A DNA stretch of 34,799 nt from Candidatus Moraniibacteriota bacterium (lineage in GTDB: Bacteria; Patescibacteriota; Minisyncoccia; Moranbacterales; UBA1568): contig JAHFON010000009.1 of NCBI GenBank assembly GCA_023261695.1, positions 1 through 34,799 of the forward strand, read 5' to 3'. The notes under the pieces are model-generated. The model was not told where the DNA came from. It searched no databases and worked only from the letters and a program-made list of their open reading frames with translations. The position numbers were made by a program, and so were the translations under genes. Below are positions 3 through 12,494 of this stretch, piece after piece; within the stretch, counting starts at the first letter, position 1; each line of letters starts with the position of its first letter.

Positions 3-1244
3 GTCGGATTGCCGCTGGCGGTGCGCGCCCAAGAAAAGGGTTATGATGTGATTGGATTTGATATTGACGAAGAAAAAATCAAGCTCCTCAAGAAAGGAGA
101 AAATATTTTCAAAAAAGACACTTTCTTGAAAGAGAATCTTTTGAAGTACCCTTTCAAGGCAACCAGCGATCCGAAAAACATCGCCTCGGCCGATATTCAT
201 ATTATCTGTGTTCCGACACCGGTCGACGCTTTGCATCACCCGGATCTTGGCCAGCTTATCGGTGCATCGGAAACTATCGCGCAACATTGCAAAGCGGGCG
301 CGCTCATCATTTTGGAATCCACTGTCAATCCGTATGTTTCTGAAGAAGTCGTCCGTCCGATTTTTGAAAAGCGCGGCTTCACTGTGGGCAAGGATATTTT
401 CATTTCGCATTGTCCCGAGCGCATCAATCCGGGTGATCCAAAATGGAACGTAACCAACATTCCCCGCGTGGTCGGTTCATTTGAAAAGAAAGGGCTGGAA
501 ATGTCGCTCCAGTTCTATCGCTCCATCATTGACGCTGACATCCGTCCGATGAAATCCATCCGCGAAGCCGAGGCGGTCAAGATTCTGGAAAACTCTTTCC
601 GCAATATCAACATCGCGTTCATTAACGAGATCGCTATGTCCTTTGACAAGCTGGACATTGATACGAAAGATGTCATAGACGGCGCCGCGACCAAACCATT
701 TGCTTTTATGAAACACTATCCGTCCTGCGGTGTGGGCGGACACTGTATTCCGGTGGACCCGCATTATCTCGTGGAACGCGCTAAAGAATCCGGTTTTAAT
801 CACGAATTCTTAAAGCACGCGCTTGAAACCAACGACGGTATGCCGGCCTACACTGTAGAGCGCCTGCAAGACGCTCTTAACGATAAACGTCTGGCAATGA
901 AAGATACGGTCGTGGGCGTGTTGGGACTCGCTTACAAAGCGAATGTTGACGACGTGCGCGAATCCCCGGCGCTCAAAATTATTGAACACCTCAAGGAACA
1001 CAAATGCAAAGTGGAAACGTTCGATCCTCATTTGAAAAGAAAATCCACAATGAAGTCTCTTGAAGCAATTCTCAAAAAGGCAGAAGCGCTGATCATCGCC
1101 ACGGATCATAAGGAATTTAAGGAAGCTCTAACTCCGGCGCTGATGAAAAAATACAATATCCAAGTGATTGTAGACGGAAAAAATTGTTTAGATAAGCAGG
1201 TATTTCTAAAATCTGGTATTATTTATAGAGGTATAGGGAGATAA
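3..1244 (+). CDS. Nucleotide-sugar dehydrogenase (UDP-N-acetyl-mannosamine/-glucosamine 6-dehydrogenase family, WecC/TviB-like), 5'-truncated by window edge
   Basis: GLPLAVRA continues upstream of the track start (codons gtc gga ttg from nt 3); motifs FDIDEEK, CVPTPVD, ESTVNP, CPERINPGD, GGHCIPVDPHYL, GLAYKANVDDVRESPAL. Confidence 0.92.
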   Translation, partial: VGLPLAVRAQEKGYDVIGFDIDEEKIKLLKKGENIFKKDTFLKENLLKYPFKATSDPKNIASADIHIICVPTPVDALHHPDLGQLIGASETIAQHCKAGALIILESTVNPYVSEEVVRPIFEKRGFTVGKDIFISHCPERINPGDPKWNVTNIPRVVGSFEKKGLEMSLQFYRSIIDADIRPMKSIREAEAVKILENSFRNINIAFINEIAMSFDKLDIDTKDVIDGAATKPFAFMKHYPSCGVGGHCIPVDPHYLVERAKESGFNHEFLKHALETNDGMPAYTVERLQDALNDKRLAMKDTVVGVLGLAYKANVDDVRESPALKIIEHLKEHKCKVETFDPHLKRKSTMKSLEAILKKAEALIIATDHKEFKEALTPALMKKYNIQVIVDGKNCLDKQVFLKSGIIYRGIGR

Positions 1245-1289
1245 AGATAAGTGATGAGTGATAAAAGATGATGAATAAGCGATAAAAAA

Positions 1290-1526
1290 ATGTTTTCTAT
1301 TATCAAACTTATAATTTGGCTGGCCGGCGTCACGGTGATTGCTTATTTCGTTTTGCCGTATTTTGGTTATGAAATTAACACAAATTATTTCAACGAAAGT
1401 CGGGACGCCTGCCAAAAAACACTTGAGTTGTGCCAGAAAAATTTAATCCAAAAAGGCCTTGAGGGCATCAAGGGCAATTGCGATTGGCAGTGCATTGATC
1501 CCAAAGTGCTCATCAAGAAAAAATAA
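1290..1526 (+). CDS. Small single-TM protein with four cysteines, unknown function
   Basis: 78 aa; N-terminal hydrophobic helix (IIWLAGVTVIAYFVLPYFGY) followed by ACQ..LCQ..NCDWQC; lies in-line between glycan genes. Confidence 0.55.
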   Translation: MFSIIKLIIWLAGVTVIAYFVLPYFGYEINTNYFNESRDACQKTLELCQKNLIQKGLEGIKGNCDWQCIDPKVLIKKK

Positions 1527-1570
1527 CAATCCATTTTTTATTGTTGATTTTACATTTTGATTTTAAAATT

Positions 1571-2524
1571 ATGCGTCTCATCGTCAATCTGCCGGCGTTC
1601 AATGAGGAGGAAAAGATCGCAAGTACTATCAAGAGAATACCCCGCCAACTTGAAGGTATTGATGAGGTTTTCGTTCAAGTTATTGATGACGGATCAAAAG
1701 ACAAGACATTTGAAGTCGCCAGAGAAGCCGGTGCCGATTTCGTCTATTCCAACGGTATCAATCGCGGTATCGGCAAAACATTCCGTCATGCCGTAGAGCG
1801 CGCGTTGGAAAACGGCGCTGATGTCATGGTGAACATAGATGCCGACGGTCAGTTTGATCCAGAGGACATTAGAAAGATCATCGCGCCGATTCTCGCAAAT
1901 CAGGCCGATATGGTGAGCGCTGACCGTTTCGATCATCTGAAAGCCAAAAATATACCTCTCCTCAAAGATATTTTGAACCGTATGGCCGCCAGAATCATCG
2001 GTAACTTTATGAATGTCAATATCAAAGATCTCACCTGCGGCTTTCGCGCCTACAATCGCGAAACGCTCCTGCGTCTCAATCTGCCTGGGGATTATACTTA
2101 TACACAGGAAGTTATCATAGATGCGCTCGGTAAAAATTTAAAGATTATGTGGATTCCGGTGGAAGTCACCTATTTTGCCGGTCGCAAATCGCGCGTCGTC
2201 AAAAGCGTGATGAGTTATATCAACAACAGCTCCCGCATTATCCTGAAAGCCGTTCGCGACGTTCGCCCGATGAAATTTTTCGGAATTCCCGGACTTACTC
2301 TTATCACGCTCTCAATGATCATATTCGCGATATTTCTCTTTCAGTATCTTTCACACGATTTCAAGATTACGCCCTACCTCAATTATATAATCTTCGGTAG
2401 CGGTATGTTCATTATCGGTATCCAGCTTCTTATATTTTCTTTCATTGCCGATATGATCAAATCCAACCGCAAACTTACCGAGGATTTGATGTACATATTC
2501 AAGAAGGAAAAATACAAGAAATGA
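1571..2524 (+). CDS. Family 2 glycosyltransferase (DPM1/polyprenyl-phosphate glycosyltransferase-like) with C-terminal TM helices
   Basis: MRLIVNLPAFNEEEKIASTIKRIP, DDGSKD, NIDADGQFDP, DLTCGFRAY; ATG at 1571 preferred over the track start at 1541; overlaps next gene by ATGA. Confidence 0.88.
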   Translation: MRLIVNLPAFNEEEKIASTIKRIPRQLEGIDEVFVQVIDDGSKDKTFEVAREAGADFVYSNGINRGIGKTFRHAVERALENGADVMVNIDADGQFDPEDIRKIIAPILANQADMVSADRFDHLKAKNIPLLKDILNRMAARIIGNFMNVNIKDLTCGFRAYNRETLLRLNLPGDYTYTQEVIIDALGKNLKIMWIPVEVTYFAGRKSRVVKSVMSYINNSSRIILKAVRDVRPMKFFGIPGLTLITLSMIIFAIFLFQYLSHDFKITPYLNYIIFGSGMFIIGIQLLIFSFIADMIKSNRKLTEDLMYIFKKEKYKK

Positions 2525-3603
2525 AAATTCTATTCATCTCTCGCGCTTATCCTCCGGTCACTGGCGGAATTGAAAATCAAAACTACGAGCTTTCCATGTG
2601 GCTTCCGAAACACGCGGAAACCAAAACGCTGGCCAACCGTCGAGGCAAGAAATTTCTTCCGTTTTTTTTACCGTACGCCGCTTTGCGCGCGTTGTTTCTT
2701 ATGCGGCGATATGATGTTCTTTTGCTGGGCGACGGCGTGCTGGGTATCGTGGGTTGGTGCGTGAAACTTTTTTATCCGAAAAAAACCGCTGTTGCAATCG
2801 TGCACGGTCTGGATCTCACATTCCAAAACGCTTTTTATCAGAGATTTTGGGTACGGGCGTTCCTGCCGTCTTTGGATGGACTGATCGCCGTCGGCAATGA
2901 AACGATCCGGCAAGGTGTCGCGCGCGGTGTCCCGGAACATAAATTCACTTTTATTCCCAATGGCGTGGATACGGAAAAGTATTTCGCGTTTCACACGCGC
3001 GCGGAATTGGAAACCGTTATCGGTCTGCCGCTGAAAAACAAGTATATTCTTCTCACTTCCGGCCGTCTGGCCAAGCGTAAAGGCGTCGCGTGGTTCATCC
3101 GCTCTGTAATGCCTAAGCTTGCAGAGAACGTCCTCTATGTTGTCGCTGGCGACGGAGCTGATCGCAAAAATATTGAGCAAGCAGTGCGAGAGCGAAACCT
3201 TTCTCCGCGCGTTAAACTTCTCGGTCGCGTTTCCGATGAGACGCGCGATGCCCTTTTTAATACTTGCGATCTTTTCATCCAGCCGAATATCAGAGTGAAG
3301 GGCGATATGGAAGGCTTTGGTATCTCTGTCATAGAAGCGGCTTCGTGTGAATTGCCAGTCATCGCATCCAGACTTGAAGGACTGCAGGATGCTATCGAAA
3401 ATGGTGAAAACGGATTTCTCGTCGAAACGGAAAATGCCAAGCAATATATTTCCATCATCACAGAGCTCTTAAACGACCAACCGCGTTTACAGGCCTTCAA
3501 AAGTCGGGTGCGCCGCTATGTCATAGAACACTACGCCTGGGAAAACATTATACGTCTCTATATTTCCGCGCTGGAAAAAATAGCCGGTATGGGGCATAAT
3601 TAA
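2521..3603 (+). CDS. Family 4 glycosyltransferase
   Basis: N-terminal SRAYPPVTGGIENQ; PNGVDTEKY; LTSGRLAKRKGVAWFI; EGFGISVIEAASCELPVIAS. Confidence 0.9.
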   Translation: MKILFISRAYPPVTGGIENQNYELSMWLPKHAETKTLANRRGKKFLPFFLPYAALRALFLMRRYDVLLLGDGVLGIVGWCVKLFYPKKTAVAIVHGLDLTFQNAFYQRFWVRAFLPSLDGLIAVGNETIRQGVARGVPEHKFTFIPNGVDTEKYFAFHTRAELETVIGLPLKNKYILLTSGRLAKRKGVAWFIRSVMPKLAENVLYVVAGDGADRKNIEQAVRERNLSPRVKLLGRVSDETRDALFNTCDLFIQPNIRVKGDMEGFGISVIEAASCELPVIASRLEGLQDAIENGENGFLVETENAKQYISIITELLNDQPRLQAFKSRVRRYVIEHYAWENIIRLYISALEKIAGMGHN

Positions 3604-3608
3604 AAGGT

Positions 3609-5606
3609 ATGCATCCATTTCTGGCTTCAATCGTATTTCTTTGGGTTTCCGGTATTCTTTTTTTTGTACCGGGCTGGGTGATTTTGCGCGTGTTTTTCAG
3701 AAACACTCGTTTATTTATGCCCCTAGAAACGCTGATTTTTTCTTTCGGTATCAGTCTGGGATTGATTGATTTTTTGATGATCATCATCGGAAAATACGGG
3801 TTTAAACTGAATGCTTTTACAATCACTCTCGGGCTGGCGGCCAGTTTGATGACGCTTGTCGGAGTGGTGTTTATCTGGAAACGTTTTAATAAAAATCCAG
3901 AAACTGAAACTGAAATAAAAACAGAAATAGGAAACGCGGAATCTTTTTTCTTCACCAAGAAACAGGGCTGGATTTTTGTTATTCTTATCACGCTTACGAT
4001 TTTAACCAAAGGTGTGTTTCTCGCTCACGCGGTGCTTCCAACCGCGACCGATCTCGGTCACCATATGTATTGGGCTAAATTGATCTCTACGACTGGCGCA
4101 CTCCCCTTCTATGCCAAGCAGGAGATTGTCACCACTGCTGAAGGCGTCTATCAACTCACCAATCCTCAACCGATTATTGATTTCATCATCGGCGAACATT
4201 TACCGTTTGCGGCCATCAACATCGTAAGCGGCTTGGATTTCTTGTCAGCATTTCCGGTGGTTTTTCTTTTTCTTTACAATTTGCTCGGTCTGATTGCCTT
4301 GTTTGTGCTGGCTTTACGTTTTACCGAAGACATCCGGAGTAAATTTTTCTCAAAAAAGATTTTTACTCCGCAAAATGTCGCGCTGGTCGTTTTATTCTTC
4401 TTTGGTCCGCTCTATACTCTCGCTTCTCCGCAGGCTAAGTTTGTGTCAGGCGGCGTGGTCGGAAATACTTTGGGTAATTTTTTTATTCCGCTGATTATTC
4501 TCGCCTATTTTCGCGCGTTCAAAGAAAAAAACCCGCGCCTGCTTGCTTTAGGATTTTTTCTCACACTGACTCTCGCATACACCCATCACTTAAGCATGTT
4601 AATGCTGGCATTTACTCTCGCGGCAGGATTGCTAACTTTTCTTTTTTTGAATGCCAATGCTTTGCGGGAAACATTGCTCCCGTGGCTGAAGCTTTTTTTC
4701 TCGCCTGCTCCTATTCTGACTATTTTTTTAGCGGGAGTTTTTTTCTTTGCTGTCGCTTTGCCGACCTACATTGGAACCAACGCTGTTTCAACCGCTCTGG
4801 GCACACCCACCAAAACCACGCGCACCGGGCTGACTTTTTTACAAATTACTTTTTCTTCCGGCGAGGCCCGGGTCGCGCTGGGATTGGCAGGTTTGGTCAT
4901 AATACTTGCGGCTTTTGCGTTTCGCCGCAAAGGCATAGCCTCCGCGTTTCTGGTCGGCTGGAGCGCTATTTTGCTTTTGATGACCTATAAGCCGGCGTGG
5001 CTTTTGATTGATATTCCTTCCAATCGGATTGGGGCTTATCTTTCTTTTCCGCTGGGAATGTTGTCTGCCATTGCGGCGGTGGCTTTTTTTGCAGCGCTTT
5101 ATAAGCAAGAGACAAATCGCAAAATATACTTGCCGCACCTGTTATTTTTGACCATCGGCTTTTCACTCTTTGTTTTTTCCATAGGTAGCGGAACGTTTGA
5201 TAACAGCCAGACCCTGCTTGCCAGAAGCAAGGCCTCTGACGCTCTGCAAACATTTGACGCGTCAAATTATTTGGCGGAACATAGTTTACCGGAAGATACG
5301 ATTCTGAAAGACCACAATTATATAGTGGCTGATTCCTGGATAAAACTTTTTTTTCTGCGCGACTATTCCTATCCGCTCTCGCGTGGTTTTTTCAAACGTT
5401 ACACGGATAATCCAAAGCGCGAACAATGTACTCTGCTTATGATTTCCACTCCCAATACGCCGCGCGGAGAAAAATGTTACAATGATTTAGGAGTTGATTT
5501 TGTTATGATCAATCCGCATTTTGACACCGCCCAATTTAAGAAATCACAAAATTTTTCGCGCATCTATGCTTCGGATAATATTCACATTTATTCTCGAATA
5601 AAATAA
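3609..5606 (+). CDS. Large polytopic membrane protein, possible GT-C-like glycosyltransferase or polymerase
   Basis: 665 aa with many hydrophobic helices and a C-terminal soluble segment; position between glycosyltransferases. Family not pinned down. Confidence 0.7.
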   Translation: MHPFLASIVFLWVSGILFFVPGWVILRVFFRNTRLFMPLETLIFSFGISLGLIDFLMIIIGKYGFKLNAFTITLGLAASLMTLVGVVFIWKRFNKNPETETEIKTEIGNAESFFFTKKQGWIFVILITLTILTKGVFLAHAVLPTATDLGHHMYWAKLISTTGALPFYAKQEIVTTAEGVYQLTNPQPIIDFIIGEHLPFAAINIVSGLDFLSAFPVVFLFLYNLLGLIALFVLALRFTEDIRSKFFSKKIFTPQNVALVVLFFFGPLYTLASPQAKFVSGGVVGNTLGNFFIPLIILAYFRAFKEKNPRLLALGFFLTLTLAYTHHLSMLMLAFTLAAGLLTFLFLNANALRETLLPWLKLFFSPAPILTIFLAGVFFFAVALPTYIGTNAVSTALGTPTKTTRTGLTFLQITFSSGEARVALGLAGLVIILAAFAFRRKGIASAFLVGWSAILLLMTYKPAWLLIDIPSNRIGAYLSFPLGMLSAIAAVAFFAALYKQETNRKIYLPHLLFLTIGFSLFVFSIGSGTFDNSQTLLARSKASDALQTFDASNYLAEHSLPEDTILKDHNYIVADSWIKLFFLRDYSYPLSRGFFKRYTDNPKREQCTLLMISTPNTPRGEKCYNDLGVDFVMINPHFDTAQFKKSQNFSRIYASDNIHIYSRIK

Positions 5607-5622
5607 AAAATGTTTTTCCATT

Positions 5623-5976
5623 ATGTCGCAAAAACATCTTATCCTTATCTCTCTCTTACTATTTACGACCAGTGTATTCTTTCTTTTCTGGCAGAACGCG
5701 CGTGAGCTCAATCCCGATACTGATAAAAATTGGTGGGTTGCCGCATTTGCATTTCCTAAAAATACCACCGATCTCGCTTTCACTATAGAAAATCACAGCA
5801 ATCAGACCGAATTTCAATATACGATAACCGTTGATAAAACAGATTTTTTGCAAGACAAGATTTTTGTAAAAAGCGGAGAAAAAACAACTGTTACTCCATC
5901 ACTTACCGCCCAACCAAACGTCCGCACCTCCATCATAATCACAGCAGGAAAAGAAAATAAAGAAATTTACAGATAA
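5623..5976 (+). CDS. Small membrane-anchored protein with predicted extracytoplasmic beta-rich domain (DUF1616-like tail, tentative)
   Basis: 117 aa; signal/TM helix then NPDTDKNWWVAAFAFPKNTTDLAFTIENHSNQTEFQYTITVDK...; in operon order. Confidence 0.55.
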   Translation: MSQKHLILISLLLFTTSVFFLFWQNARELNPDTDKNWWVAAFAFPKNTTDLAFTIENHSNQTEFQYTITVDKTDFLQDKIFVKSGEKTTVTPSLTAQPNVRTSIIITAGKENKEIYR

Positions 5977-5981
5977 ATTAT

Positions 5982-7106
5982 ATGTCATCTAAAAAAATCC
6001 TGCTGGCTACTCGCCCCCTTGTTCCCCCTTGGGACGAAGCTTCCAAAAACTTCGCTTACTTTCTTGCCAAATCTGTCACCAAGCACCATATGAGTATTCT
6101 TACCACGCCGACTTGGCTTTCTGATTTACCGGCTAACGTAACGCAAATCCCCTGTTATGCCAAGGACGAGCTCGATTTCTCAGAAAAACTTCGCCTGCTT
6201 GCATCGCTTCGAAAACTGCGCGGAAAATATGACATTACTCACTATCTCTTCACGCCCACGCGCAAAAACACCTCGCTTATAAATTTCTTCAGCCGTCCCA
6301 CGCGCGGTAAGACCATTCAAACCGTTGCGACACTTCGTGAAGATATCTACGGCCCGAAACAGTTAAAACAGCTTCTCTTCGCCCACCACATTGTCGTGTA
6401 TTCTGATTATTCCCGGAACCGTCTCAAACATATAGGTTTTCATAACGTCAGCCGCATCTATCCCGGAGTTGATCTTGATTTCTACCATCCCCAAGTTAAA
6501 GATTCGGAGGCTATGGCGTTTTTCAAACTTTCATCGGAAGATTTCGTGGTTATGTATCCGGGAGAATATGCCCGTCTTGGCGCTACCGATATGCTCGCCT
6601 CTTGGCTTATTGATTATTTCCAAAAGTATCCTGATTCAAATATGAAATTTATTTTCGCCTGCCGCGTGAAGAAACACGAGGATGATCAACAGAAAAAATC
6701 AGAAATAGTAAAACGTTTCAAAGAAGCCGGTATCCTCGACCGGGTGCGTTTCACCGATACTTATGCTGATATGCCCAAGCTCTACAATCTGGCTGATGTG
6801 GTGGTATTTCCCGTCAATGATATGCGTGGTAAATTCGATGTGCCGCTCGTCATCATCGAAGCTTACGCCTGCGGAAAACCAGTTATTCTGTCTGATCTTC
6901 CCATCTTTGCAGAGTTTTCAAACCCGGAAATTTGTGTTACTGTGGCTCGTGGTTCAATGGAAGAATTATCCAAAAAACTGGCTTATCTAAAAGATAACAG
7001 GGCAATCAGAGAATCACTCGGCCAGAACGCCCGCGCTTTTGTGGAACAAAATTTCAATCTCAAAGATACTGTGCGGGAGTATGAAAACCTTTACACCGAG
7101 CTTTAA
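5982..7106 (+). CDS. Family 4 glycosyltransferase
   Basis: IYPGVDLDFYHP, MYPGEYARLGATDMLASWL, DVPLVIIEAYACGKPVILSD, C-terminal NFNLKDTVREYENLY. Confidence 0.88.
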   Translation: MSSKKILLATRPLVPPWDEASKNFAYFLAKSVTKHHMSILTTPTWLSDLPANVTQIPCYAKDELDFSEKLRLLASLRKLRGKYDITHYLFTPTRKNTSLINFFSRPTRGKTIQTVATLREDIYGPKQLKQLLFAHHIVVYSDYSRNRLKHIGFHNVSRIYPGVDLDFYHPQVKDSEAMAFFKLSSEDFVVMYPGEYARLGATDMLASWLIDYFQKYPDSNMKFIFACRVKKHEDDQQKKSEIVKRFKEAGILDRVRFTDTYADMPKLYNLADVVVFPVNDMRGKFDVPLVIIEAYACGKPVILSDLPIFAEFSNPEICVTVARGSMEELSKKLAYLKDNRAIRESLGQNARAFVEQNFNLKDTVREYENLYTEL

Positions 7107-7109
7107 TAT

Positions 7110-8618
7110 ATGAAATACGAAAACTTTATAAAAAACACGAATGATTATCGTCAGAAATTCCAGACGGAAAATATGAAAGTGCCGGTGATTTTTCATACGC
7201 AAGACGCGCTCCTTCCCAACGAGGCAACTTTCGCCCAACTGGAAGACGTCGCTTCCAATGACGGCATTTTTCAGCATATCGCCGCTTTGGCTGATGTGCA
7301 CAGTAAACCGGGACGCAAAAATGCCACCGGCACGGTTATCGCGTCTGAAAAATATATTTTTCCGCAAGTGAATGACTCTGATCCCGCCTGCGGAATGCGG
7401 CTGGTGAAAACTAATTTGGACGACAGTAATGTGACCAAGGAGGAGTTGGACAAACTTTTTCAAGCACTGACTGCGACCGCTCCGACTAAAACTTATATCG
7501 GAACTTATCTGCCAATGCGGATCATTGTGGATATTTGCCGTCTGGGCATCGCGCCGCTGATTGATTATCTCGGCATCCGCACGAAAAATGAAACGACTAA
7601 TTGTCTGGAACGCGGCAATTTTTTTGATCAGGAAAAATCCCGTGAATATATTTTTCAAGTGATTCCAAAATTATTTTTGTTTTTTGCGCAGTTTCGCGCG
7701 GGTATCTTGGGCGCGGCCGGCAATCACTTTCTGGATTTGGTGAAAGTGACTGATATTCTAAACGAAGACATCGCCCGAAAATTTGATCTTCGCAAAGGGC
7801 AATATCTTTTTATGGTGCACTGCGGTTCCGGCATTTTGGGACAATACACGATGTATATGTACACCGCCAAGAAACGGGAACATCTATCAACCGCCATTCT
7901 TATGAACATAGGCCGTTTTTTTTGGAAAACGCCTTTCAAAAAAACCGTCGCTCTCATCGCTCAAAAAATAAGAAAGTCTGGTTTTGGCAAACAAAAACAA
8001 CTCATTACGTTCAATGGAGACGGCGAGGACGGCAAACTTTATATGGCGGCGCGCAATGCCTGTTCCAATTTCGCTCACGCCAATCGCGCGGTTATCACGC
8101 ACAATATTTCGGAAACCATAAAAAAAACGCTCGGCCGCGATCCGGAGCTGGAACTTCTCTATGATATGCCGCATATTCTCGTTTCTCGCGAAGAACACTA
8201 TGGCCAAAATGTTTGGGTGCACCGCAACGGAGCTTCGCGCGCTTACGGCCAGTCGCGGATGCAGGATCATCCGCTTTTCAGAGAAACAGGAGAACCGGCA
8301 TTTATTCCGTCTTCAATGAGCACGGCGGCGTATCTTTGCGTTGGCACAGATGAAAATGTTTCCGGTTTTTATTCTTGTAATCACGGAGCGGGCAAATCAT
8401 CTCAAAAAACAGAGAACCTCGTTCCGCGCAACAAAACAGAGATGAACGAAAAATTGGCCGCCAAAGGCGTTAAACTTTACAACGGCCGTTCTTCCAAAGT
8501 GATTGAGCAGGATTCATCTCATTATAAACGCGCGGAAGACGTGATAGCCAGCGCGCAAGCTAACAACATTGTGAAAACCGTGGCCAAATTGCAGCCGGTA
8601 TCGGTGATTATGTATTAA
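7110..8618 (+). CDS. Divergent RtcB-like protein (tRNA-splicing ligase/RNA ligase superfamily)
   Basis: Colinear RtcB motifs: HIAALADVHSKPGRKNATGTVIA; DSDPACGM (cf. GVDIGCGM); GNHFLDL; VHCGSGILG (cf. HSGSRGLG); ITHN; VHRNGASRA (cf. RKGA); FIPSSMSTAAYL (cf. PGSMGTxSY); CNHGAGKS (cf. xHGAGR). Confidence 0.85.
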   Translation: MKYENFIKNTNDYRQKFQTENMKVPVIFHTQDALLPNEATFAQLEDVASNDGIFQHIAALADVHSKPGRKNATGTVIASEKYIFPQVNDSDPACGMRLVKTNLDDSNVTKEELDKLFQALTATAPTKTYIGTYLPMRIIVDICRLGIAPLIDYLGIRTKNETTNCLERGNFFDQEKSREYIFQVIPKLFLFFAQFRAGILGAAGNHFLDLVKVTDILNEDIARKFDLRKGQYLFMVHCGSGILGQYTMYMYTAKKREHLSTAILMNIGRFFWKTPFKKTVALIAQKIRKSGFGKQKQLITFNGDGEDGKLYMAARNACSNFAHANRAVITHNISETIKKTLGRDPELELLYDMPHILVSREEHYGQNVWVHRNGASRAYGQSRMQDHPLFRETGEPAFIPSSMSTAAYLCVGTDENVSGFYSCNHGAGKSSQKTENLVPRNKTEMNEKLAAKGVKLYNGRSSKVIEQDSSHYKRAEDVIASAQANNIVKTVAKLQPVSVIMY

Positions 8619-8621
8619 ATT

Positions 8622-9224
8622 ATGAAATTCATCGCATTTTCTGGCGTTGATGGCTCTGGAAAATCAACACAACTAGAGTTGCTTCGGGAAAAATTGGAAC
8701 GTGAAAATCTGAATGTCGCTTATTTTCACGCAGTAGAATTTTCTCTGGCCAATAGAATCTTCCGCTTTTTCAAAGGACAAAAAACATTTGAACCGGGAAA
8801 AGAAAAAGCCGTCACCCAAGCCTCATGGTTTTCTGCTATTGTGCGGGAGAAATTATTGTTTTTGGATATGCTCCGTTTTCGCCTGTTTTTGCGCAAACTC
8901 AAAAAAGAAAATTGCGATTATCTCCTTTCCGACCGCTATTTTTATGACTCTTTGATCAATATCTCCTATCTTTCTGATTCCAAACTGATAAAAATCGGGA
9001 TGTTTTTTTTGGAAGCCATACTGCCCAAAACGGATGTCGCTTTTTATCTTAATATCTCTCCGGAAAGCATTATGACGCGGGAAAATGTTCCGGAACAAGG
9101 TATGGATTATCTCCACGCCAAACAAGATCTCTTTGAACAAAAAATTGCTGATTGGAATTTAATCGCGATTGACGCCGGCAGAGACAAAGAAATAATTTTC
9201 CAAGATATTCTAACAAAAATATGA
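8622..9224 (+). CDS. Thymidylate-kinase-like P-loop nucleoside/nucleotide kinase family protein
   Basis: P-loop FSGVDGSGKSTQ; LSDRYFYDSL (DR motif); LID-like MTRENVPEQGMDYL; C-terminal IAIDAGRDKEIIFQDI. Confidence 0.85.
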   Translation: MKFIAFSGVDGSGKSTQLELLREKLERENLNVAYFHAVEFSLANRIFRFFKGQKTFEPGKEKAVTQASWFSAIVREKLLFLDMLRFRLFLRKLKKENCDYLLSDRYFYDSLINISYLSDSKLIKIGMFFLEAILPKTDVAFYLNISPESIMTRENVPEQGMDYLHAKQDLFEQKIADWNLIAIDAGRDKEIIFQDILTKI

Positions 9225-10699
9225 AAAAATTTTCGCAAGCGCTGGTCTGGCTGACTATTTCAGAAATTATTTTTAATCTCGCGGGCTATATTATTCATTC
9301 GTCAGTCGGACGTATTTTGGGACCGGCCGATTACGGACGCTTCAGCGTGATTGTCACCTTGACGACTATGGTGATTGTTTTGATCGGCAACGGCATTCCG
9401 ACAGCAATGTCCAAGTATTTAAGTGAAATTTTCCAAAACGCTCCGGAGAGGATTCTCGGCATCAAACACAAGGCGATGGCGCTTCAGTCCGTTCTGATAC
9501 TTTGCGTCACGCCGCTTTTCTTTTTTAGTTCTTCTCTCATCGCGCGGGCGCTTTCCGATCCCAGTCTCACGCCGCTTTTCCAAATCTCATCTTTGATTAT
9601 TCCCTCTTTTGCGGCCGCTTCTTTTTATTTCTATTATTTTACCGGCTTGCATTTTTTCAAACTTCAAGCTGTGCTGAAAACGGTACGCGCTTTAGGACGG
9701 ATCATTTTTATTATAAGTTTTGCCTACTTCTTTGGAGTCAAAGGAGCGATATCCGGTTATATCGCGGCGCCGCTTTTTGTGTTTGCTATCGCTTTTATTC
9801 TGGATATTTTGATTACCCATCGTTATTTTCCCGCTGTCAAAAAACCGCTCTCTTCGCCGATACAATTTTCAGGAAAAACTCTTTTGACGTATGCCTGGCC
9901 GCTGACGTTATTCCTTCTTTTTTATGAATTTATTCTGACGCTGGATTTGTATTTTGTTAAGGGCTTGCTCCAAAGTGATTATCTGACAGGCATTTACAAT
10001 GCCGCCATCACGGTGGGACGTATCCCGTATTATCTTTTCTACGCTCTCACGATTATTCTTTTACCGGCCATTTCTCATACGACCACCAATCAAGACACAG
10101 CCCAAACGGAGAATCTCGTGAATAAATCATTGCGCCTGATGACTCTGCTTTTGTTTCCGATAATCACGCTTCTCATCGTGTACGCTTCGCAAACCCTTCG
10201 TCTTTTTTATGGTGTAAAATATTTAGATGCGGCTGTTCCAATGAGTGTTTTTACGATCGGAGTGGGATTTCTGACGGTTTTTTATGTTTTGAGTTTTGCT
10301 TTGAATGGCGCCGGACTGGTGAAAATACCGATGAAGCTGACTTTCTTCGGACTGCTGGCAATCATCGCTCTTAACTTTATTTTGATTCCGCAGTTTAAGC
10401 TAATCGGCGCGGCTCTCTCTGCTACGGTGGTGGCTTGTCTGCTGATGATCAGCATTCTCGTTTATGTGGAATTTCATTTCAATGTCCGCTTGCGTTTCAA
10501 AACGATTGCGCTTTCTTTGATCAGCGCTATTTTGATAGCCTCTTTGGCGCGTTTTCTGCCACACGGAAACTTCAACTTCATAATTTCAGCCACGGCATTG
10601 TTCTTCCTTTACTTTATCTTGCTAAAAATTTTCGGCGAGCTGAAAACAGACGATGTTGCTCCGTTTGTAAAACTTTTACCAAAGCGCGATCGCCGCTAG
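9221..10699 (+). CDS. Polysaccharide/oligosaccharide flippase (MOP/Wzx-like)
   Basis: 492 aa polytopic; SSVGRILGPADYGRFSVIVTL N-terminus typical of PST/Wzx transporters; ATGA overlap with upstream gene. Confidence 0.88.
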   Translation: MKKFSQALVWLTISEIIFNLAGYIIHSSVGRILGPADYGRFSVIVTLTTMVIVLIGNGIPTAMSKYLSEIFQNAPERILGIKHKAMALQSVLILCVTPLFFFSSSLIARALSDPSLTPLFQISSLIIPSFAAASFYFYYFTGLHFFKLQAVLKTVRALGRIIFIISFAYFFGVKGAISGYIAAPLFVFAIAFILDILITHRYFPAVKKPLSSPIQFSGKTLLTYAWPLTLFLLFYEFILTLDLYFVKGLLQSDYLTGIYNAAITVGRIPYYLFYALTIILLPAISHTTTNQDTAQTENLVNKSLRLMTLLLFPIITLLIVYASQTLRLFYGVKYLDAAVPMSVFTIGVGFLTVFYVLSFALNGAGLVKIPMKLTFFGLLAIIALNFILIPQFKLIGAALSATVVACLLMISILVYVEFHFNVRLRFKTIALSLISAILIASLARFLPHGNFNFIISATALFFLYFILLKIFGELKTDDVAPFVKLLPKRDRR

Positions 10700-11433
10700 C
10701 AATGAGCCTCTGCCACGGCCAGTTGTTGTTTGTCATTCACGCCAAGGCCTTCATAGGGATTCTCTATCACGCAAGCCGCTATCCTCTCTCCCTGTTCAAA
10801 GGCCATTCTGAACATATCCGTCAGATAATACTCTTTGGCTACATTTTCGTTTTTCAGTTTTTCGATGTTTTCCCACAACCAATCCGCGTCAAAGCAATAA
10901 TAGCCAGTATTGACTTCGCCGATTCTTTTTTGTTCTTCAGAAGCATCTTTGAGTTCTACGATACCTGTCACGTCTTCGTTGTCTCCGCGTATCACTCTGC
11001 CGAAATTATAAAAACTCGCGAAGTCCCCTTCAAAGTGCGGGACGGAAACAATAGCTAAAGAAATCACGGCTTCTTTTTTCTGCCGCAGATCCACGAGTTT
11101 TTTCAAAGTTTCCGAGCTGATCAACGGACTGTCTCCGGGCGTTACCAGAATATTCTGATAACCTTTGTGCGCCAAAACAGACTTGGCGCACAAGATGGCG
11201 TGACCCGTCCCCAACTGTTCGGGTTGACGGACATACAGATACCCGTTGCCCAACTCGGCAATCACCTCGTCGCCTTTGTATCCAACAATAATAGTCGGGC
11301 GTTCAAAAATGTTTTCTACATTTCTTAAAAGCCGCTTGATAATCGGGATACCCTTCACATTGTGCAATACTTTCGGCCTATCCGATTGCATCCGAGTCCC
11401 CTTCCCTCCAGCCAAAATCACAAGTTGATTCAT
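10696..11433 (-). CDS. GlmU N-terminal-like UDP-HexNAc pyrophosphorylase (nucleotidyltransferase only, no LbH acetyltransferase domain)
   Basis: MNQLVILAGGKGTRMQSDRPKVLHNVKG, EQLGTGHAILCA, TPGDSPLI, EVNTGYY; ATG at 11433 preferred (track start 11445 is a TTG). Confidence 0.88.
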   Translation of the reverse strand: MNQLVILAGGKGTRMQSDRPKVLHNVKGIPIIKRLLRNVENIFERPTIIVGYKGDEVIAELGNGYLYVRQPEQLGTGHAILCAKSVLAHKGYQNILVTPGDSPLISSETLKKLVDLRQKKEAVISLAIVSVPHFEGDFASFYNFGRVIRGDNEDVTGIVELKDASEEQKRIGEVNTGYYCFDADWLWENIEKLKNENVAKEYYLTDMFRMAFEQGERIAACVIENPYEGLGVNDKQQLAVAEAHC

Positions 11434-11442
11434 AATGTTATT
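11408..11442. repeat. Imperfect 35 bp direct repeat, copy 1 (5' end of functional glmU-like gene)
   Basis: ccagccaaaatcacaagttgattcataatgttatt; matches copy 2 at 33/35 positions. Confidence 0.95.
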
Positions 11443-12494
11443 CAAATTTTTTTGTATCTAGCGCCTCTTTTTATCCCTATTCTTTCAATCAATTTTAAAA
11501 CAACCAAGCGAGACAATGCCTGTTTGAGAGTAGCCATCGGAATAGAACCTTTGAGTTGCTTGTTAATTTCAGAAACGCTTAAAGTGTCAACCTGAAATAA
11601 CTGATAAATCACAAGTTGTTTTTCTGAAAGAAGTTTTTCTGGCTGGTCTTCTCTCATTATACTCTTAGCTCTTTTGATTTGCTCCAAAAGCGCATCCAAT
11701 AGAAAATTGAGCCAGGGCGTAACATCCTCGTTTTTTGTCTTATGTTGAGACTGGGTTTTGCGCAGAGCCAGATAATAATCAATTTTTCTTTCTTCAATAA
11801 TTTCATCCAGTGAAACATAGGGAACATAAGTGTATCCGGCTTTAAGAAGCAACAATGTAGTGAGCGCCCTCGAGAGCCTGCCATTGCCGTCACGAAACGG
11901 ATGAATAGCCAAAAACTCAAAAATGAAATTGGCAATCAGAATGAGCAAATGAATATCTTTTTTGCTGGTCTCTTCATTCATCCAAAAAATAACATCGTCC
12001 ATTTCTTTTTTAGTGAGATATGAAGGTGTCGGTTCAAAAATGACAATTTCTTCGCCATCTTTCTTCCGCATCACCACTTTATTATCAGATGTCTTGTACT
12101 TACCCCTATGGGTTTTGTCTTTTTCTGAAAAATTGAGCAGGATTTTATGAAAATGCAAAATTTGCCCCTCCGTAATTTTGAGAGTTTTCCAATTATCAAA
12201 AATTCTTCCCAATAAATCAGCATACCCCGCCACTTCCTCCGCATCTCTTCCTTGGGGCGGTGTTGATTTGAGTCCCGCGATCAGCCTCGCCACTTCATCA
12301 TCTGACATCTTTGAACCCTCAATACGAGTAGACGCCCCCGTGCTGGTGATGAGGACGCTTCTTTTTAGTCTGCCTAATGTTTGAGGACTCAACCTCAAAC
12401 TCCCCTTCCACAAGCCTCTAAATTCGTCTATTTGAGCTATCTTTTGAAGTATTTTTTGGCTCAAATTGACCCTTTTTTCAAATCTATTTTCCAT
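11442..12494 (-). CDS. Fic family protein (class II, N-terminal inhibitory motif) with C-terminal winged HTH
   Basis: HPFRDGNGRLSR Fic core motif; N-terminal STRIEGS matching [S/T]xxxE[G/N]; C-terminal IYQLFQVDTLSVSEINKQL...ATLKQALSRLVVLKLIERIG wHTH. Confidence 0.93.
   Translation of the reverse strand: MENRFEKRVNLSQKILQKIAQIDEFRGLWKGSLRLSPQTLGRLKRSVLITSTGASTRIEGSKMSDDEVARLIAGLKSTPPQGRDAEEVAGYADLLGRIFDNWKTLKITEGQILHFHKILLNFSEKDKTHRGKYKTSDNKVVMRKKDGEEIVIFEPTPSYLTKKEMDDVIFWMNEETSKKDIHLLILIANFIFEFLAIHPFRDGNGRLSRALTTLLLLKAGYTYVPYVSLDEIIEERKIDYYLALRKTQSQHKTKNEDVTPWLNFLLDALLEQIKRAKSIMREDQPEKLLSEKQLVIYQLFQVDTLSVSEINKQLKGSIPMATLKQALSRLVVLKLIERIGIKRGARYKKI

Follow-up and report, generated by a model that had tools for sequence, protein, structure and literature searches.

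A putatively reshaped RtcB relative and a kinase-like partner kept in a surface-sugar operon across an uncultured order

Based on residue comparisons, gene neighbourhoods and phylogeny, we propose that a gene of a Candidatus Moraniibacteriota bacterium encodes a divergent, catalytically competent RtcB-fold nucleotidyltransferase that is fixed in the envelope-glycan pathway of Ca. Moranbacteria and common to two related families, our best explanation, to which we give a probability of about one half. Judged by sequence, this reshaped RtcB relative is kept together with a kinase-like partner in a surface-sugar operon across an uncultured order. As a bolder form of this explanation we tentatively suggest, at odds clearly short of even, that the RtcB-fold enzyme and a kinase derived from thymidylate kinase (TMK) make phosphodiesters on glycan or lipid-linked intermediates, using a nucleotide other than GTP. 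Our literature searches found no prior description of an RtcB-like/TMK-like pair in a glycan operon.

The window, i.e. the whole stretch of 34,799 nucleotides that was analysed, belongs to a draft genome of 860 kb. Several glycosyltransferases (GTs) and a flippase, the features of a surface-glycan operon, lie together on one strand at 9-10699 (+), with the intact RtcB-like and TMK-like reading frames directly upstream of the flippase gene:

9-1244, + strand: nucleotide-sugar dehydrogenase (UDP-sugar type); TIGR03026, 390.6 bits, above cut-off; reaches the window edge
1290-1526, + strand: U78, small one-TM protein, operon-conserved
1541-2524, + strand: GT2 glycosyltransferase, AglJ-like; PF00535; TIGR04182, 123 bits, under its cut-off
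2521-3603, + strand: GT4 glycosyltransferase; PF00534, E=1e-35
3609-5606, + strand: U665, multi-TM membrane protein, ~14 predicted TM segments; no family match
5623-5976, + strand: U117, small one-TM protein; no Pfam match
5982-7106, + strand: GT4 glycosyltransferase directly upstream of the RtcB-like gene; PF00534
7110-8618, + strand: RtcB-like protein, 502 aa, ATG start, divergent clade; PF01139, E=2.8e-74, 251 bits, residues 43-500
7830-7832, + strand: codon G241 of the RtcB-like gene, aligned with the canonical RNA-backbone Arg238 position; Gly in 83/83
8382-8384, + strand: codon H425 of the RtcB-like gene, at the position of His404, the guanylylated residue in P. horikoshii RtcB; His in 83/83
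8610-8612, + strand: codon M501 of the RtcB-like gene, at the canonical guanine-contacting Lys480 position; Met/Val in 82/83, Lys in 0/83
8622-9224, + strand: TMK-like P-loop kinase-fold protein, 200 aa, ATG start; PF02223, 34 bits (cut-off 27)
9221-10699, + strand: flippase (polysaccharide synthesis/MurJ-like); PF01943, E=8.4e-25

The GT4 gene ends at 7106, gaps of 3 nt precede both the RtcB-like and the TMK-like gene, and the flippase gene overlaps the latter by 4 nt from 9221; the coordinates, spacing and single strand given in an earlier note on this DNA are exact. A promoter and terminator scan across the operon gave no signal clearly above that of shuffled sequence. In its nucleotide-sugar dehydrogenase, GT2, GT4s, multi-TM protein and flippase, and in an O-antigen-ligase-like gene present in some relatives, the arrangement resembles Wzx/flippase-type surface glycan operons, from which it differs by the additional RtcB-like and TMK-like pair, both members of which are predicted to be soluble.

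Fold and family profile (PF01139, 251 bits) place the RtcB-like protein in the RtcB superfamily: the top structural matches of its AlphaFold2 model (pLDDT 93) are all RtcB, at TM ~0.8, with a Foldseek E-value of 5e-37 against 4dwq. Using P. horikoshii RtcB numbering, with correspondences across species taken from alignment and numbering offsets, ten residues (D65, C98, N202, H203, F204, H234, H329, S380, H404 and Y451) are identical at 83/83 Moranbacterial loci. They include the guanylylated histidine (H404), the asparagine at the alpha-phosphate (N202) and the metal ligands C98, H203, H234 and H329, while the fifth ligand, D95, is Asp in 53/83, Ala in 29/83 and Ser in 1/83. The earlier note had listed the catalytic histidine and the metal ligands as retained, which is correct for the histidine and four of five ligands; its assignment of the 'THN' histidine as a ligand is rejected, as H355 (motif YDMPH) aligns with P. 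horikoshii His329. The likeness to the RtcB RNA ligases (4dwq; human RTCB, 7p3b) thus extends over the fold, the nucleophile, these four ligands, N202, D65, F204 and Y451.

The protein differs from these ligases in its glycan-operon setting, in having no adjacent archease and in seven residues replaced in 83/83. R238 is exchanged for Gly, E206 for Asp and E446 for Gln at every locus; K351 is Asn or Ser in 82/83, N330 Ile or Val in 81/83, S385 Ala or Gly in 81/83 and K480 Met or Val in 82/83, with the canonical residue in 0/83 at each position. The motif deviations named in the earlier note are real, and they are fixed in the family. Among 20 long-type canonical RtcBs of the same phylum, R238, N330, K351, S385 and E446 are kept in 20/20, E206 in 19/20 and K480 in 18/20. 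In ten further RtcBs, most of them shorter, R238 (10/10), N330, K351, S385 and E446 are likewise kept, with E206 and K480 mixed, so the latter two alone are not diagnostic. In canonical enzymes, E206, S385 and K480 contact the guanine base and E446 its N7 (PMC8668186; for Lys480 also PMC3973293), D95, N330 and K351 contact the released phosphate (PMC10944509), and R238 binds the RNA backbone, the equivalent zebrafish variant R263A being inactive (PMC12135372). In P. horikoshii RtcB with archease, the K480A variant yields more product with ATP than the wild type does (PMC3973293). S200 was rejected as a lost RNA contact, as Ala also occurs in the canonical copies compared. On these alignments, the nucleotidyl-transfer core is retained and the RNA, guanine and phosphate interface replaced; the invariant core, the interface exchanged in 83/83 and the intact canonical controls favour our best explanation and suggest a new role.

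Within its genus, family and order, 53/57 genomes encode homologues of the RtcB-like protein, and scanning a species-wide genome collection with a profile gave 114 related loci, 80 of which were retrieved with organism names. On simple longest-ORF gene calls, 73 of the 80 Moranbacterial loci with room (83 loci in total) have a same-strand GT4 gene at most three genes upstream, and TMK-like and flippase genes follow downstream on the same strand in 71/83 and 68/83, respectively. The clade-wide link to TMK-like and GT genes that the earlier note had proposed to look for spans the order and extends to the flippase, which supports a role in the glycan pathway, as suggested by gene neighbourhood. 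At some loci genes are inserted on the opposite strand, with the TMK-like gene usually still following; a Wzy_C (O-antigen-ligase-like) gene lies between the two on the opposite strand at L083:1562-2866 and in 14 other cluster members. We note that one record titled Micavibrio sp. (L126) carries a Moranbacteria-like RtcB locus and is probably a misbinned contig.

The two related families of the same class show different arrangements. In f54, GT4, one further gene and the RtcB-like gene share one contig, joined in genome G186 by U665 and U117, and the TMK-like and flippase genes share another; this split of the operon into GT4-RtcB and TMK-flippase units favours our best explanation. In f41 the genes are dispersed, the RtcB-like gene adjoining yvcK and the TMK-like gene adjoining rnc rather than lying among GT genes, which counts against it. 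A CofD-like neighbour in f41, which would have pointed to GMP-activated phospholactate chemistry, was rejected, as this neighbour scores as YvcK. The loss of D95 in 30/83 also weighs against the explanation, given that RNA is not ligated by RtcBs of other species carrying the D95A change (PMC10944509, PMC3973293), as does the abundance of GT genes in these genomes.

Profile searches of 289 genomes of the class detected the RtcB-like protein in 30, U665 in the identical 30 and the TMK-like protein in 29. In an RpoB tree from which G017, a row in the wrong frame, and the fragments G152 and G215 are excluded, the genomes carrying this set form one clade, so that the shared distribution is consistent with a single acquisition rather than independent support. 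Co-occurrence alone is therefore weak evidence for a partnership, was rejected as proof of one and, being explained by one acquisition, counts against our best explanation. For G002, G025 and G032, true gene loss was rejected; assembly breaks are plausible instead because U665 or its fragments lie at or near contig ends.

In a maximum-likelihood tree, the Moranbacterial RtcB-like proteins and those of f41 and f54 form one group (99/98) apart from canonical RtcB, in agreement with the separate clade expected in the earlier note. The f41 and f54 proteins have R238G, E206D, K351N, E446Q and K480M in common and keep S385. For pairs where it could be estimated, dN/dS is ~0.04-0.13 for the RtcB-like gene, which is under purifying selection, and 0.09-0.30 for the TMK-like gene; the separate clade and the RtcB-like values favour our best explanation. 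In a phylum sample of 382 genomes, an RtcB match of any kind occurs in 30, of which 27 fall outside this clade, and the near-universal presence of the RtcB-like gene (53/57) where other RtcBs are rare (27/382) points the same way. Archease is a frequent, though not universal, partner of RtcB. Three of the 57 relatives encode it on the same contig as, and close to, a canonical-type RtcB, and the other 54 are without it, a distribution that again favours our best explanation. A search of the source genome found no archease anywhere, extending the earlier observation that none is nearby. The three loci with archease (L071-L073, genomes G010, G038 and G035) appear sporadic and may reflect horizontal gain.

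Further RtcBs were seen in the surroundings of this clade. Genomes of family f54 encode an additional RtcB of the short type, ~391-395 aa, adjoining a NUDIX gene (L198, L199). Another divergent RtcB clade, distinct from this one, is found near GT genes in tandem pairs (L192, L193, L194) and as single copies (L195-L197), with a CDP-alcohol phosphatidyltransferase adjoining in several loci; in the tandem pair, the His404 motif HGAG is kept by one paralogue but has become PSAA in the other. A phage or plasmid origin was rejected, the matches listed being RtcBs at ~25-28% identity.

The alternative that survives best, though we consider it unlikely, is that the RtcB-like protein serves the lineage as its RNA 3'-P/5'-OH ligase, with a sequence that has diverged and a gene that is incidentally co-transcribed with glycan genes. 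It would account for the kept fold and catalytic residues, for rnc among the f41 neighbours and for the RtcB-like protein being the only RtcB of the source genome. The last point also bears on the earlier note, which had favoured repurposing and named a sole RtcB as evidence against it: no second copy was found there, though four of the 57 relatives carry a canonical-type one. An RNA ligase is difficult to reconcile with the change of every guanine contact, with the linkage to GT and flippase genes across the order and with the coexistence of canonical-type RtcB and archease in three relatives. It is weakened mainly because R238, the equivalent of which is essential in zebrafish, is Gly in 83/83, and with it the notion that a gene for RNA repair was trapped in the operon loses ground. 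The separate clade, the linkage and the lost RNA and guanine residues thus speak for repurposing, and the sole RtcB speaks against it.

Regarding the proposed partner, the TMK-like protein scores 35.7 bits against a curated dTMP kinase model with a cut-off of 83.25 and is hence not assigned as that equivalog, while its fold matches dTMP kinases (TM ~0.7), identifying a P-loop kinase fold of the TMK type. It shares this fold with dTMP kinases (PF02223) such as Sulfolobus tokodaii ST1543 and P. falciparum TMK, and its P-loop and DR motif are invariant. The LID differs from that of canonical TMK, and the acceptor-side Arg segment of the P. falciparum enzyme appears to be replaced by FHAxEFS, in a region where the alignment is uncertain. 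A canonical Tmk, for which the earlier note had suggested searching, is encoded on another contig of the source genome. In family f50, which is without the RtcB-like gene, double-length TMK-like proteins of ~400 aa occur among glycosyltransferase genes (L254, L256), the L254 frame containing two TMK-like matches.

Given the chemistry of RtcB and the nature of its kinase-like partner, a scheme of phosphorylation, activation and joining may be drawn for the two proteins. The TMK-like protein could phosphorylate a glycan or lipid-linked intermediate, the identity of which is the least certain step. The RtcB-like protein would form an NMP-His425 intermediate, for which the nucleotide need not be GTP and ATP is the first candidate. 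The NMP would then be passed to the phosphate on the glycan or lipid-linked intermediate, followed by displacement through a hydroxyl to form a phosphodiester; alternatively, the NDP-activated intermediate may be the end product. Finally, the flippase encoded next would export the glycan or lipid-linked product.

A related but rather improbable alternative is that the RtcB-like protein makes an NDP-sugar by transferring the NMP from its histidine to a sugar phosphate, with no later joining step. Apart from the phosphate acceptor, this would correspond to the second step in the RtcB reaction, and it fits the nucleotide-sugar dehydrogenase and several GTs of the operon, but the window already holds ordinary sugar nucleotidyltransferase genes (10696-11445). 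Least probable is a non-catalytic scaffold or regulator of RtcB descent, suggested by the lost substrate and base contacts and by the tandem-RtcB clade, where one paralogue can lose His404, since the nucleophile, C98, N202, H203, H234 and H329 are present in every one of the 83 proteins, unexpected for a non-catalytic protein.

In conclusion, our data suggest a new job for the RtcB-like protein that is amenable to direct laboratory testing. All RtcB functions described in the literature searched act on RNA ends. If true, the phosphodiester-forming role proposed here would take RtcB chemistry beyond RNA repair into the synthesis of envelope polymers, adding a new class of substrates, and would point to an unknown phosphate-containing step at the cell surface of Ca. 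Moranbacteria.
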